Assembly: GCA_035764935.1 (NCBI GenBank)
Contig: DASTYK010000090.1
Location: 1-36,685, forward strand
Direction of reading: 5' to 3'
DNA length: 36,685 bases
Source: Longimicrobiales bacterium
Lineage (GTDB): Bacteria > Gemmatimonadota > Gemmatimonadetes > Longimicrobiales > RSA9
This document shows positions 1,036 to 23,420 of this stretch, piece by piece. The translations under genes and the position numbers were made by a program. The notes under the pieces were generated by a model. The model made no database searches. It was not told the origin of the DNA and worked only from the letters and a program-made list of their open reading frames with translations. Positions within the stretch are counted from its first letter, which is position 1; every line of letters starts with the position of its first letter.

Positions 1036-2982
1036 TTACGCCTGGCCGGTAACGGGCGCGACTGCCTTCCGGTGCGCCGGCGGTGGGAACCCGAACTCCG
1101 CATCCTCCTCGACCGACTCGAGTGGCAGCGTGCAATTGATGCCATTGATGCCGTCGAAGACCTGCAGCGCGAACTCGACCTTGCCGAACGGCGCGCTCAC
1201 CTGCAGCCCCTGCACGGCGCCGCTCACGTCGTGGAACATCTCGCGCGCGATCGCGATCCCCTCGGCCAGGGCGTGCTCGCGGCTCTGTGCGCTCGCGCGC
1301 TGCATCCGCTCGACGATCGACGGCGGCACGGTCACGCCGGGCACTTCGTTGGCCAGGAACTCCGCGTTTCGCGCGGAGACGAGGGGCCAGATGCCCGCAA
1401 TGATGGGAATGCGCAGGCCCCGTCGCTCGAGCTCCTCGATGAAGCGCAGCAGCTGCGCCGCATCGAATACGGGCTGCGTGATCGCGTACTCCGCGCCCGC
1501 ATCCACCTTCCAGTAGAAGCGCGACAGCTCGTTCTCGAGATCGGGCGCACCCGGGTTCACGCCGACGCCGATCGTGAACGACGTCGGCTCGCCGATTGAG
1601 TTGCCGCCTGGATCGAGCCCGTGGTTCAGCCGGCTCACCAGGTTGGTGAGTCCGATGGAGTCGATGTCGAAGACCGCGGTCGCGTCCGGGTACGGCCCCA
1701 TCTTCGGCGGATCGCCGGTGATGAGCAGCAGGTTGCGCAGCCCGAGTGCGTGCGCGCCGAGCAGGTCGGACAGCATGCCGAGCAGGTTGCGGTCGCGGCA
1801 GCAGTAGTGCACCACCGTCTCGATGCCGACGACCTGCTCCACCAGTGTGGCGGTCGGCAGAACGCCCATGCGCATCTGCGCGCGCGGGCCGTCGGGCACG
1901 TTCACCGCATCGACCCCGGCCTGCTTCAGCAGCCGCACGCCCGCGAGCATCTTCGCGGGAGTGATGCCGCGCGGCGGCACGATCTCGACCGTCGTGGCCA
2001 GCTCGCCCGCTGCGATCTTCCGCCCCCAGTTGGAGCGTTCCGCGAGCGGCGCCCCCTGCACCGGAACCGTCTCTTCCGGATGCGACTGCACGTGCACCAG
2101 CGTGCGACGCGGCGCCACCGAGTGCACCGCGTCCGCGATGCGGCGGATGTGCTCCGGTGTGGTGCCGCAGCAGCCGCCGACGAACCGCACGCCCGCGCGG
2201 ATCATCCGCTGCGCATGCTTGGCCATGTATTCCGGCGACGCCATGTACATCTTGCGCCCCGCGATCTCGCGCGGCAGCCCCGCATTCGGCTGCGCGCTGA
2301 GCGGCCGCTCCGTCGCCTGCGCCATCTTCTCGAGCGCGCTGTTGATGACCGCGGGCCCGACCGAGCAGTTCAGCCCGATCGCATCCGCACCCCACTCATC
2401 CAACTTCGCCGCGAGCACGTCGGGTGCGGTGCCGTACACGGTGGTGCCGTCCTCCTGCACCGTCATCTGCGCGATGACGGCTGCGGCACCCGCGTCGCGT
2501 GCGCCCAGCAGTGCCTGGTGCACCTCGTCCAGGTCGGCAAACGTCTCGAGCAGGATGAAGTCGGCGCCCCCCTCGAGCAGCGCGCTCGCCTGCTCGCGGA
2601 ACAGCGCCCGCGCCTCCTCCAGCGACGTCGGCCCGTACGGCTCGATGCGGATGCCCAGCGGCCCTATCGCACCCGCCACCAGCGCATTCGCCCCCGCCAC
2701 CTCCTTCGCGATCCGCGCCGCCGACGCATTGATCGCCTCCACCTGCGCCTCCAGCCCGTGCTCCGCCAGCTTCAGCCGGTTCGCCCCGAAGCTGTTCGTC
2801 TCCAGGATCTCCGCACCCGCCCGCAGATACTCGCGGTGCACCTCGCGGATCAGGTCCGGCTCCCTGAGCGACAGCTCGTCGTAGCAGCGGTTGATGTAGA
2901 TGCCGCGCGAATAGAGCATCGTGCCCATGGCGCCGTCGAAGACGGCGGGGCGCTGGTTGGTCAGCAGGTCGTGGATGGTCAT
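1036..2982 (-). CDS. Bifunctional homocysteine S-methyltransferase / methylenetetrahydrofolate reductase (YitJ-like)
   Basis: 648 residues with two fused domains. Residues 1-300 are a zinc-dependent homocysteine methyltransferase barrel: FDGAMGT near residue 15, then the zinc ligands Cys206 (GLNCS) and Cys271-Cys272 (GGCCGTTPEH). Residues from about 325 onward are an FAD-type MTHFR barrel (VEIVPPRG, then RDRN and TGDPPK motifs), which reduces methylene-THF to methyl-THF. This is the arrangement of Bacillus YitJ. Its methyl-THF product is the methyl donor for the MetH encoded just upstream, so the pair makes methionine from homocysteine. The homocysteine domain duplicates that of MetH. The ATG at 2982 overlaps the stop of the four-helix-bundle gene (2979-2981) as ATGA, so translation may be coupled. 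It is complete. Confidence 0.9.
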   Translation of the reverse strand: MTIHDLLTNQRPAVFDGAMGTMLYSRGIYINRCYDELSLREPDLIREVHREYLRAGAEILETNSFGANRLKLAEHGLEAQVEAINASAARIAKEVAGANALVAGAIGPLGIRIEPYGPTSLEEARALFREQASALLEGGADFILLETFADLDEVHQALLGARDAGAAAVIAQMTVQEDGTTVYGTAPDVLAAKLDEWGADAIGLNCSVGPAVINSALEKMAQATERPLSAQPNAGLPREIAGRKMYMASPEYMAKHAQRMIRAGVRFVGGCCGTTPEHIRRIADAVHSVAPRRTLVHVQSHPEETVPVQGAPLAERSNWGRKIAAGELATTVEIVPPRGITPAKMLAGVRLLKQAGVDAVNVPDGPRAQMRMGVLPTATLVEQVVGIETVVHYCCRDRNLLGMLSDLLGAHALGLRNLLLITGDPPKMGPYPDATAVFDIDSIGLTNLVSRLNHGLDPGGNSIGEPTSFTIGVGVNPGAPDLENELSRFYWKVDAGAEYAITQPVFDAAQLLRFIEELERRGLRIPIIAGIWPLVSARNAEFLANEVPGVTVPPSIVERMQRASAQSREHALAEGIAIAREMFHDVSGAVQGLQVSAPFGKVEFALQVFDGINGINCTLPLESVEEDAEFGFPPPAHRKAVAPVTGQA

Positions 2983-3401
2983 GGGTGGTTACTGCTCGTG
3001 ATGCGGGCCGGGGCCCGGGGCCCTGGGCCGGGGCCGGGGGCGCCCCGGCCCTCGACGCTGGTCATCATGGTCGTCAGCATGGCCGCGACCTGGTTGAGAC
3101 GCTTGATCGCGCGCTCGGTCTCCTGCGGCGTGAACACGCCGAACCGAACCAGCAGGGTCAGTGCACCCGCCGTCTCGGCCGCGGACCTGCGCGCCATGCG
3201 GTAAAATCGAACCTTTTCCGCAACGCGAAACTCATCAGCGCCCTCTGCAATGTTGAGCGCCACGGACGCGGAGGAGCGCGAGACCTGATCGCGGAGTGCG
3301 CGATGAGCAACCGGAATCCGACGCGCCAGCCCGTTCACATCGGCCGCAGCGTCCGCCGCAGCATCGAACACCCGCAGCCGCTGGAATTCGAAACCGCCCA
3401 T
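2979..3401 (-). CDS. Four-helix-bundle protein of the 23S rRNA IVS/Avd-like family
   Basis: About 140 residues. From the ATG at 3401 (preceded by GAGGG about 6 bases upstream) it reads FQRLRVFDAAAD, then LRDQVSRSSASVALNIAEGAD and FYRMARRSAAETAGAL. These are hallmarks of the four-helix-bundle family first seen as ORFs inside 23S rRNA intervening sequences: the LxxQxxRSAxSIxxNIAEG core and a later S-x-x-E. The upstream in-frame extension to 3566 runs through repeat DNA and is not counted. The C-terminal tail is Gly-Pro-Ala rich (GAPGPGPGPRAPAR) because it is encoded by a GC-rich TIR, and it ends 20 bp outside the element. The gene sits between inverted GC-rich repeats (2999-3511), which sets it apart from its metabolic neighbours. 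The biochemical function of the family is not established. Confidence 0.85.
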   Translation of the reverse strand: MGGFEFQRLRVFDAAADAAADVNGLARRIPVAHRALRDQVSRSSASVALNIAEGADEFRVAEKVRFYRMARRSAAETAGALTLLVRFGVFTPQETERAIKRLNQVAAMLTTMMTSVEGRGAPGPGPGPRAPARITSSNHP

Positions 3402-3511
3402 GGTGCACCCTCGAGTGAAGCTGACATGCAAGGGCTCTGGCCTCGCACGTGGCCGCCGGACGGGGCCACCCCCGGGCCCCGGCCCAGGGCCCCGGCCCCC
3501 GGCCCGCCTCA
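2999..3511. mobile_element. Family A element carrying the four-helix-bundle gene
   Basis: The left end (2999 to about 3052) reads TGATGCGGGCCGGGGCCCGG and continues as alternating GGCC/GGGG blocks. The right end (about 3459-3511) read in reverse complement gives TGAGGCGGGCCGGGGGCCGG, followed by the same block pattern including GGGCCCTGGGCCGGGGCC. The arms are about 50 bp and nearly identical when inverted. The four-helix-bundle ORF occupies the interior and exits through the left arm. No transposase is present and no target duplication is evident. The same ends occur at 7403-7561 and, shortened, at 5031-5182. The 8 bases outside the left end (ACTGCTCG) resemble those beside the 7403 copy (ACTACTCG), so the true boundary may be slightly further out. 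Confidence 0.7.
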
Positions 3512-3558: not shown

Positions 3559-6500
3559 TCACGCACTGAAATACTTCGCCTCCGGATGATGCACGACGAT
3601 CGCGGCCGTCGAGAGCTCCGGCACCAGTGCGCCGGCCTCCGTGACCTCCATGCCCAGCTTCTCGCGGGCGGGCAGCAGGTCGAACAGGATGTGGTGCTGC
3701 GTGTGGTCGGGGCATGCGGGGTAGCCCCACGAGTAGCGCAGGCCGCGGTCCTTCTCGAGCCCCAGCTCCTCGCGGATGCGGCGGTTCACCACTTCCGCGG
3801 CCGCCTCGGCCAGGCGTACACCGTAGCCGTGCAGGTAGTAGCCCTCGGAGTAGTCGCCGCCCTTCATCATCGCTTCGCTCTTCGTGAGCAGTGCGTCGCC
3901 GACCGTGACGATCTGGAATGCGACGACATCGCGAGTGCCGGTGCCGGCCTCGCGGAAGTAGTCGCTCAGGCAGAGCAGGTCGCGCGTGTCCTGGCGCGGG
4001 AAATCGAAACGCGCGATCTCGCGGTTCTCGTCCTCCGGGTCGTACACCACGACCGCGTCACCGTCGGCCGCGGCGGGGAAGTACCCGTACACCGCGGCCG
4101 GTCGCAGCCAGTCCGTGGTGCGCGTCTCCTCGATGTACTTCTGCAGCCGCGGCTCGAACTCGTCGCGCACCAGCTGCTCCCACTGCTCGCCCTTGGCGTT
4201 CTTCGCACCCCAGTGCAGCCGGAAAAGCGTGTTGCGATCGATGTAGCGGAACAGTTCCTCGATCGGCAGTGCCTCGATGTGGCGCGTGCCGAAGAACGGC
4301 GCATCAGGAATGGCGACGTCGCGCGAGGGCCCGCTCGTCGCACGGTTCGCGTGCATCGCCTTCGCCTTCTCCTGCAGCGCTGCCCGCTTGGCGACGCCCT
4401 CGATCACGTCCTGGTGCCGCGCACGCACGAACTCCGGGCGTGCCGCCGGGTCCACCAGCTTCTCGACGGAGCCCAGCCCCTCGAATGCGTCCTTGCAGTA
4501 GAACACGCCGGGGCCGTACAGCGTCTGCTTCTCCTGGTCCGCAAATGCGGCAGAGCGCACGAACGACGGATTGATCGCCGCACCACCGCACAGCACCGGA
4601 ATGTCCAGCCCGCGCTGGTGCAGCTCCTGCACGATCAGCGGCATCTGCTTGGACGTCGACACCAGCAGCGCCGACAGCCCGATCGCATCCGCCCCGACCT
4701 CGACCGCCTTCTCGATGATCGTGTTCGCCGGCACCTGCTTGCCGAGGTCGTACACCGTGTAGCCGTTGTTCGTCAGGATCGTGTTGACCAGGTTCTTGCC
4801 GATGTCGTGCACGTCGCCGAACACCGTCGCCAGCACGACCTTGCCCTTGGTCTGCCCCTCGACCTTCTCGAGGTACGTCTCCAGCCGCGCCACCGCCCGC
4901 TTCATCACCTCCGCCGACTGCAGCACGAACGGCAGGATCAGCTCGCCGGCGCCGAACTTGTCGCCGACTTCCTTCATGGCGGGCAACAGGACCTGGTTCA
5001 GTACTGCTACGGCGGCTTCGTGCTGATGAGGATGCGGGCCGGGGCCAGGGCCCGGGCCTGGGCCCGGGGCATTCGCCAGCTCCTCGCCCGCCGCAGCGTT
5101 CTCTGCGACCGCCACGGATGCTGACTCGGCCGCAGCGTTCGACGATGCCACCCCGGCCCCGGCCCCGGCCCGGGCCCGCAGTTCCTTGTGAATAGCCCGA
5201 TCCACCCACCCCTCGATCCCATCCTTCTTCCGATGCAGTATCTTCCAGTGCAGCGCCTGCTCCGGCTCCATGCTCTCGGTCGGGTCGACGGCTTCCTCAG
5301 AAGCGATGTCGCGCGTCTCGAAGTACGCGATGAAGCGCGCGAGCGCGTCCTCGCTGCGGTCGTAGATCAGGTCGTCGGCCAGGCGACGCTGCTCGTCGTC
5401 GATCTCGGCGTACGGCGTGATGTGCGCCGGGTTGACGATCGCCATGTCCAGGCCGGCCTCGACACAGTGGTGCAGGAACACGGAGTTGAGCACCGCGCGC
5501 GCGGGCTTCGACAGGCCGAAGCTGACGTTGGATACGCCGAGCGACGTGAGGACGCCGGGCAGTTCCTGCTTGATCAGGCGGATACCCTCGATCGTTTCGA
5601 TCGCGCTCCTGCGGAACTCGGCGTCGCCGGTCGCGAGCGTGAACGTGAGGTCGTCGAAGATGATCGATTCCGGTTGGATGCCGTAATCGCTCGTCACGAT
5701 GTCGACGATGCGGCGCGCCACCTCGAGCTTGCGCTCCGCCGTCTTCGCCATGCCCTCCTCGTCGATCGTGAGCGCGACCACGGCCGCACCGTGCTCCGCG
5801 ATGTGCGGACATACGGCGTCGATCTTCTTCCTGCCATTCTCGAGATGGATCGAGTTGACGACGGCACGGCCGGGATACTGCTCCAGCGCGGCGGCCACGA
5901 CATCGGCCTCCGTGCTGTCGATCATGAGCGGGGCTTCGACGCCCTGCGCGAGCAGCTTCACGAGCGCGCGCATCTGGTCGGCCTCGTCCTGCCGCTCCGT
6001 CAGTGCGACGCACACGTCGAGCAGGTGCGCGCCACCCTCCACCTGCTCGCGCGCGACGTCGAGGATCCCCTCGTAGTCGTCCGCCAGGAGGAAGCGCTTG
6101 ACCGCGCGCGAGCCCTGCGCGTTCACGCGCTCACCGACCAGTGTCGGCGCAGGGATCTGCTTCAGGTCGAATGCGCGCATCGCACTCGCGACCCGCGGCA
6201 CGCGCTCCACGTTGCGCGCAAGCGGCGCGCGGCCGTGACAGCGCTCGACCACCGCCGCGATGTGCTCCGGTGTCGTGCCGCAGCAGCCGCCGACGATGTT
6301 CACGCCGTACTTCGCGACGAACTCCTCGTGCGCCTCCGCGAGTCCCTCGGGACCCAGCGGGTAGATCGCGACGCCACCGTCGTTCTGCGGGATACCGGCA
6401 TTGGGGATCACGCTGATCGGAAGCGGCGTGTTGTCGCACAGGAAGCGCACCGCCTGGCGCATGTGCTCCGGACCCGTCGAGCAGTTCAGCCCGATCACAT

Positions 6501-7402: not shown

Positions 7403-7561
7403 TGAGGCGGGCCGGGGCCCGGGGCCCGGGGCCGGGGCCGGGGGATGCGAGCGCTGCTCCTCGCCTTCAGGAACCTTCGCGGCTGTGAAATCCTCGCGAG
7501 GGTGCGGGACGTGACGGGCGACCCGGCCCTGGCCCCGGGCCCCGGGCCCCGGCCCGCCTCA
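7403..7561. mobile_element. Family A short element without a gene (159 bp)
   Basis: The left arm 7403-7443 and the reverse complement of 7521-7561 match for about 40 bp with one visible mismatch. Both start TGAGGCGGGCCGGGGCCCGG. The centre of about 77 bp has no plausible coding sequence. The first three bases of the right TIR are the TGA stop codon of pepP (7559-7561, minus strand). The left flank ACTACTCG resembles the ACTGCTCG beside the 513-bp copy. It looks like an internal-deletion derivative, comparable to a MITE or BIME. Confidence 0.72.
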
Positions 7562-11054: not shown

Positions 11055-11172
11055 AAACGGATCAGGGCGAGGACGAGCGCCAAGGCGAGCGCGAGGAACG
11101 ACGGGGCGCGAGCACCCGCCTCTGTTGTTCCCTCACCGCTGGCGCTAGCGCTCGTCCTCGCCCTGATCCGTT
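11055..11172. repeat. Family B complete inverted-repeat element
   Basis: The left arm (11056-11099) starts AACGGATCAGGGCGAGGACG. The right arm (11127-11172) ends with the exact reverse complement of the first 25 bases. The inner parts (to GAGGAAC / GTTCCC) are also related, giving arms of about 45 bp and a 27-bp centre. The element spans the gap from the thyX stop (11052-11054) to the dksA stop (11171-11173), overlapping the latter by 2 bases. It could serve as a two-way terminator. It contains no gene. Confidence 0.8.
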
Positions 11173-23179: not shown

Positions 23180-23420
23180 CGTATGGGCCGGGGGCCGTCA
23201 GGGCCGGGGGCGTCGGGGGTCGGGGGCCGTGGGCTCGGGGCGTCTGGGCCGCGGGCGTCAGGGCCGCGGGCTTCTGGGCCGGGGGCCGTCAGGGCCGGGG
23301 GCCGTCAGGGCCGGGGGCGTCAGGGGCCGGGGGCGTCAGGGGTCGGGGGCGTCAGGGGTCGGGGGCCGTTTGGGCCTGGGGGCCGTTCTGGGCCGGGGGC
23401 CGTCTGGGCCGGGGGCGGCT
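23180..23420. repeat. G-rich tandem repeat, about 15 copies of about 16 bp
   Basis: Units follow the consensus GTCAGGGCCGGGGGCC, varying at GTCA/GTCT/GTTT and CCGG/TCGG/CCTG, with lengths of 13-17 bp. The plus strand carries dense runs of three to five G and could form G-quadruplexes. The minus strand is C-rich. No reading frame with plausible protein character was found. Confidence 0.85.

Follow-up and report, generated by a model that had tools for sequence, protein, structure and literature searches.

Which kind of element separates metH from metF in this genome, and how did it come to lie there? In the 36,685-nt stretch of DNA analysed here (the window; contig C90 of a 3.83-Mb genome of 195 contigs, G000), the minus strand carries metH (7173-3559), an inverted-repeat element and metF (2982-1036), a bifunctional homocysteine methyltransferase/MTHFR gene, in this order. 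A first-pass annotation made from the letters had described the element as a four-helix-bundle gene bracketed by inverted repeats and had read it as one of a family of elements outside rRNA that resemble intervening sequences (IVS), with the helix-bundle gene as the associated gene. Relatives retrieved with the proteins of the window genome belonged to the Gemmatimonadota.

The element and its gene-free copies in the window genome

The two arms of the element comprise 42 nt each, are 93% complementary and enclose 429 nt (Table 1). Alignment of the arm pair as an inverted repeat (IR) gave a score of 34.5-36 compared with a maximum of 13.5-15.5 for shuffled flanks, and folding of the element as RNA yielded z = -6.8; such a stem may be a substrate of RNase III, as the first-pass annotation had supposed. 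PF05635 (23S_rRNA_IVP) is the sole gene family in the loop, matched with 67.5 bits against a curated cut-off of 33.8, and the same gene matches TIGR02436 (four helix bundle). Both the inverted arms and the type of gene read from the letters were thus confirmed. The reading frame of this IVP gene runs through the metF-proximal arm, which encodes a C-terminal GPGPGP tail, and its stop codon overlaps the metF start (ATGA). The G+C content is about 90% in the arms and 65% in the IVP gene. Rfam gave no match in the window or in the copies of G049, a genome of another genus described below. The element is a real, non-random feature.

Table 1. Positions of the metH-metF element and of the gene-free copies in the window.
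Feature	Position	Strand	Remarks
Whole element	2999..3511		metH-metF intercistronic junction; inverted repeat; gap 576 nt vs -5 to 74 nt in nine relatives
metF-side inverted arm	2999..3040	+	starts TGATGCGGGCCGGGGCCC; imperfect 6/7-nt units; gapped match reaches inward to ~3052
metH-side inverted arm	3470..3511	-	ends in GGCCCGCCTCA; gapped match reaches inward to ~3458
IVP / four-helix-bundle gene	2979..3401	-	140 aa + stop; PF05635 1.4e-18, TIGR02436 1.4e-18
Arm of gene-free copy inside metH	5033..5062	+	in frame, linker before B12-binding domain; IR 20 vs shuffled max 11.5
Partner arm of gene-free metH copy	5151..5180	-	IR 20 vs shuffled max 11.5
Arm of gene-free copy upstream of metH	7403..7442	+	adjoins pepP 3' end; inverted-repeat scan
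Partner arm of gene-free copy upstream of metH	7522..7561	-	inverted-repeat scan

The two nearby copies of the arms without a gene that had been noticed before were recovered at 5033-5180, in metH, and at 7403-7561. The arm start TGAKGCGGGCC applies to the first and third copies, but not to the metH copy, which starts with GGATGCGGGCC. A genome-wide search with the arm consensus, as proposed in the first-pass annotation, located the arm core GCGGGCCGGGGC 42 times, compared with five occurrences of the reversed control pattern; pattern and BLAST searches are the basis of all results for the whole genome. Among 30 of these places that were inspected, one is the copy with the IVP gene and eight distinct elements, the two window copies included, are pairs of arms that lack a gene and differ in their spacers. 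Roughly twelve places are single arms, and five resemble coding background. This arm family is thus represented in the genome by a single copy with an IVP gene and by many copies without a gene. In 40 relatives the arm core was not enriched, its counts being close to those of their own controls except in G036. The window genome harbors four IVP genes in total, all with inverted arms of a sequence that differs for each, and the arms of a second IVP element occur at about nine further gene-free places. Several contig ends (C43, C140, C161 and C167) have an arm-core match no more than a few hundred bases away, as if the assembly tended to break at arms, and arm copy numbers may be underestimates; the C140 match near a contig end is probably coding background.

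Association of IVP genes with tandem-repeat arms

PF05635 is a common bacterial family that has, to our knowledge, no assigned function, and whether its members in rRNA are mobile elements has been under discussion since the 1990s. IVP loci from multiple phyla were picked by protein similarity across GTDB species, without selection for arms, and arms were called at a flank IR score of at least 17, which is reached by 1% of control positions at the same loci. Inverted arms were present at 33 of 56 testable loci, compared with 2 of 173 other small ORFs at the same loci (Fisher OR 123, p 2e-22). Elsewhere in the Gemmatimonadota, 61 of 67 IVP loci, a few of them counted twice, displayed arms, mostly with 7-nt units, and on named cyanobacterial and Riemerella plasmids arms were found at 11 of 16 IVP loci, where the units include the heptamers AGGGAGT and GGGAACA. 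Arms therefore accompany PF05635 genes much more often than chance would allow, and a random placement unrelated to four-helix-bundle genes, which the first-pass annotation had considered, does not agree with these counts. About 40% of the multi-phylum loci, several in Legionella and Chlamydiota, stayed below the arm threshold, part of them because the arms overlap the 3' end of the gene (L041). The multi-phylum elements span 407-904 bp and have units of 6 nt (17), units read as 12 nt (10) and rarely units of 7 nt (2). Further arm copies within 20 kb were detected at only 7 of the 33 loci with arms, yet they amount to 20 copies where 0.8 were expected. Full-text literature searches, which covered few subscription papers, gave no earlier account of PF05635 genes lying between arms of tandem repeats.

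The arms are short-unit tandem repeats, and their sequence is private to a genome and often to a single copy. In G160, five IVP copies carry five heptamers (AGAGTTG, TGCAGAG, AGGCATC, AGAGGTC and ATCGTGA), each identical in both arms. A tree of 132 IVPs (119 columns) splits into two clades with a support of 100/99. Periodic arms in one clade have units of 6 nt (31), 7 nt (2) or 8 nt (2), those in the other clade units of 7 nt (30) or 8 nt (8) and none of 6 nt, so that 6- and 7-nt units segregate with the clade at a Fisher p of 6e-16, with rows that are not independent and a short tree. Both unit lengths occur within the Gemmatimonadota, each following the protein clade, and heptamers occur at plasmid IVP loci of two further phyla, whose proteins lie outside the tree. 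The window IVP, which sits on a long branch, is one of the two 7-nt exceptions in the 6-nt clade; units of 6 nt and of 7 nt alternate with each other irregularly in its arms. Tandem 7-nt intergenic units are present in relatives of the 7-nt clade (clade B). The assumption that arms track the four-helix-bundle clade therefore holds for repeat-unit length, but not for arm sequence.

The IVP gene is under purifying selection, with a dN/dS of 0.05-0.15 in eight related pairs; three further pairs were saturated. A profile of the IVP relatives matches PDB 2GSC (Xanthomonas XCC0516; E 1.5e-18) and 2RLD. The Xanthomonas relative forms a homopentameric ring of four-helix bundles (PMC4990558).

A second gene family was encountered between inverted arms. 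GxxExxY genes (TIGR04256) were flanked by arms at 6 of 13 testable loci, with units mostly of 9 nt (CACAGAGGA, GTCGCGGAG); the loci are L270 (G147:C24:34200-35900), L315-L319 and L325. IVP is thus not the sole cargo of such arms. On plasmids of Pseudanabaena and Anabaena (L297, L299), IVP genes with heptamer arms are located in CRISPR loci, between cas6 and cas4, and the Anabaena plasmid record holding the IVP gene contains a type I-D CRISPR locus.

Presence, absence and dispersal

Nine relatives have no element between metH and metF (Table 1). At the same junction G008 carries a different IVP element with CGTGCC arms and G011 a gene-free palindrome with other arms. The metH linkers of G000, G004 and G001 contain in-frame palindromic hexamer inserts of private sequence (IR 20-24 compared with maxima of 10-11.5 for shuffled sequences), while this linker is absent or short in G008, G005, G007 and G013. 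The TCGGAT unit of the G004 linker insert recurs just before metF of that genome. Arms in frame would be tolerated because their 6-nt units encode open dipeptide repeats. Insertion of such elements explains in-frame low-complexity linkers such as that of MetH.

In G049 (genus g36) the ends of the IVP element L239 recur at 23 gene-free places, with none in four congeners. A common non-repetitive core of about 175 nt, folding as one hairpin, is present in 16 of these 23 copies; their consensus fold is one long hairpin with a near-invariant stem, so that covariation is uninformative. The L239 site is empty (3 nt) in G114, is occupied by gene-free palindromes with other arms in G157 and G055, and holds a GxxExxY gene between arms in G147. 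The AGAGTTG array of G160 gave 129 matches compared with 0 in the four other genomes that served as control (the reversed pattern only shifts the phase of this tandem repeat and is no control). Beside the four G049 copies examined no transposase was found that could act as an autonomous partner.

The loci are thus not fixed among relatives, and the pattern of presence and absence fits mobility; dispersal of the elements is well supported. Target-site duplications were not seen at the G000 pairs or at the L239/G114 site, where the exact ends are uncertain, and no jump from strain to strain was seen, the empty sites lying between species or genera. These two points, together with the many single, unpaired gene-free arms, the multi-phylum IVP loci below the arm threshold and the GxxExxY genes as further cargo, weigh against the explanation we favor, namely that the metH-metF feature is a dispersed IVS-like element outside rRNA with IVP, not a transposase, as its own gene. 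The association with IVP genes within and beyond the Gemmatimonadota and the empty sites make this reading, which agrees in its main point with that of the first-pass annotation and extends far beyond the window, the probable one. From anatomy, gene linkage and empty sites we infer that the feature is the gene-bearing member of a family of small palindromic elements, which disperse in bacterial genomes and occupy protein linkers and the gaps between cistrons.

If the elements were ordinary MITEs, mobilised in trans by a transposase encoded elsewhere, with one of them having acquired an IVP gene, they would likewise have terminal inverted repeats without an enzyme of their own, and gene-bearing and gene-free copies with common ends. 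Termini differ between nearly all elements, however, even within G160, and no single transposase should accept them all. A duplicated target was not seen at the uncertain ends, nor was a transposase near the inspected G049 copies. We consider this origin very improbable. A passive origin, in which replication slippage and template switching make and homogenise palindromes of inverted tandem repeats and IVP is a passenger captured in the loop with no role in dispersal, is unlikely for other reasons: it does not predict that one or two gene families are enriched, that unit length follows protein clade, or that the 23 copies of one species have a common non-repetitive core. It does account for arms that are slippage-prone and differ between copies, for the many single or gene-free arms and for GxxExxY as a second family in similar arms.

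A further alternative is that the copies are regulatory hairpins of the host, serving as terminators, mRNA stabilisers or operon attenuators, with an IVP gene that has been domesticated and no recent mobility. It is suggested by the position of copies at the ends of genes and at operon junctions, by the very stable fold, by purifying selection on IVP and by the coupling of its stop codon to metF. Presence and absence of elements, differing occupants at the same junctions, a copy within the metH reading frame and species-private copy families all argue against such a role, which we judge to be rather improbable.

Known repeat systems and a possible mode of dispersal

The dispersed, IVS-like element that we favor resembles the 23S rRNA IVS of Leptospira, Coxiella and Brucella in its size class (about 0.4-0.6 kb), in the long stem formed by its terminal inverted repeats and in the PF05635 gene in the loop. 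The Coxiella IVS comprises 428 nt with 28-bp terminal inverted repeats, an S23p ORF and tandem GACAGAT heptamers before the ORF, and is excised by RNase III (PMC4990558). In contrast, the window element lies between metH and metF, outside rRNA and not in a 23S helix, and is therefore IVS-like but not a 23S IVS. Many gene-free copies and hexamer or heptamer arms private to a genome or element further distinguish the present elements from those in 23S rRNA. REP/RAYT systems likewise combine dispersed palindromic repeats with one gene-bearing parent type, but the gene found here encodes a four-helix bundle instead of a Y1-type transposase, and the arms are much longer and not conserved in sequence. 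With MITEs the elements have in common the short length, the inverted ends and the prevalence of copies without an enzyme; they differ in having no transposase relative and ends that vary between elements instead of conserved terminal inverted repeats.

Heptamer and other short tandemly repeated repetitive (STRR) sequences offer a further comparison, as they form 7-nt tandem arrays in gaps, and the cyanobacterial plasmid IVP genes lie between such arrays. Described examples are GGGGA(C/T)T in Nostoc and GGGAATC in Xanthomonas, the latter with 70-75 inverted pairs; no link to a gene family was found and origin and role were left open (PMC4692102), as they were for the TAACTGA repeats of Beggiatoaceae (PMC4679880). 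We predict that the Xanthomonas, Nostoc and TAACTGA repeats are arms of such elements, the sole support in our data coming from the cyanobacterial plasmid loci. This would offer an origin for abundant intergenic repeats of 6-9 nt, as in Nostoc and Xanthomonas, that were unexplained in PMC4692102.

An element consists of two inverted arms of short-unit tandem repeats with the IVP gene or a short non-coding core in the loop. In the mechanism we envisage, its transcript, or a single DNA strand, would fold into a long hairpin that the host may tolerate in the gaps between genes, behind a stop codon or as an in-frame insert. Much as the TRAP ring does with spaced triplets, the IVP ring might bind the repeat arms at 6- or 7-nt spacing, largely independent of sequence, and might help the hairpin to spread by copying or by insertion at other sites. 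That IVP acts as a mobility factor is a tentative proposal. Avd of diversity-generating retroelements is a four-helix-bundle pentamer related to IVP and works with a reverse transcriptase; an RNA intermediate is thus conceivable for IVP elements, although neither a reverse transcriptase nor a template repeat was seen with them. More speculatively still, the IVP ring may recognise arms by unit length (6 or 7 nt according to clade) and not by sequence, with GxxExxY as a variant of about 9 nt, in hairpin mobile elements that would occur bacteria-wide and be the source of orphan heptamer and STRR repeats.

Most of the PF05635 members sampled outside rRNA lie in tandem-repeat hairpins, accompanied by dispersed gene-free copies and empty sites; this places the family in a genomic setting in which its role can be tested. 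The elements look like a class of tiny mobile element that is widespread but has hardly been recognised, and they could explain short repeats in bacteria that have been puzzling for decades.

Other short repeats were observed in the window genome. At L022 and L023, tandem 8-nt arrays (CTGAACCG and GAACAGCG) lie beside single arms, so that the same gaps attract short-unit arrays of different kinds. An intergenic tandem array with units of about 14-16 nt, such as GGGGGCCGTCAGGGCC, occupies positions 23195-23420 of the window, and a second palindromic repeat family (CACCGCTGGCGCTAGCGCTCGTCCTCGCCCTGA), gene-free and near gene ends, is present at 11056-11172, 28-68 and 966-1006.
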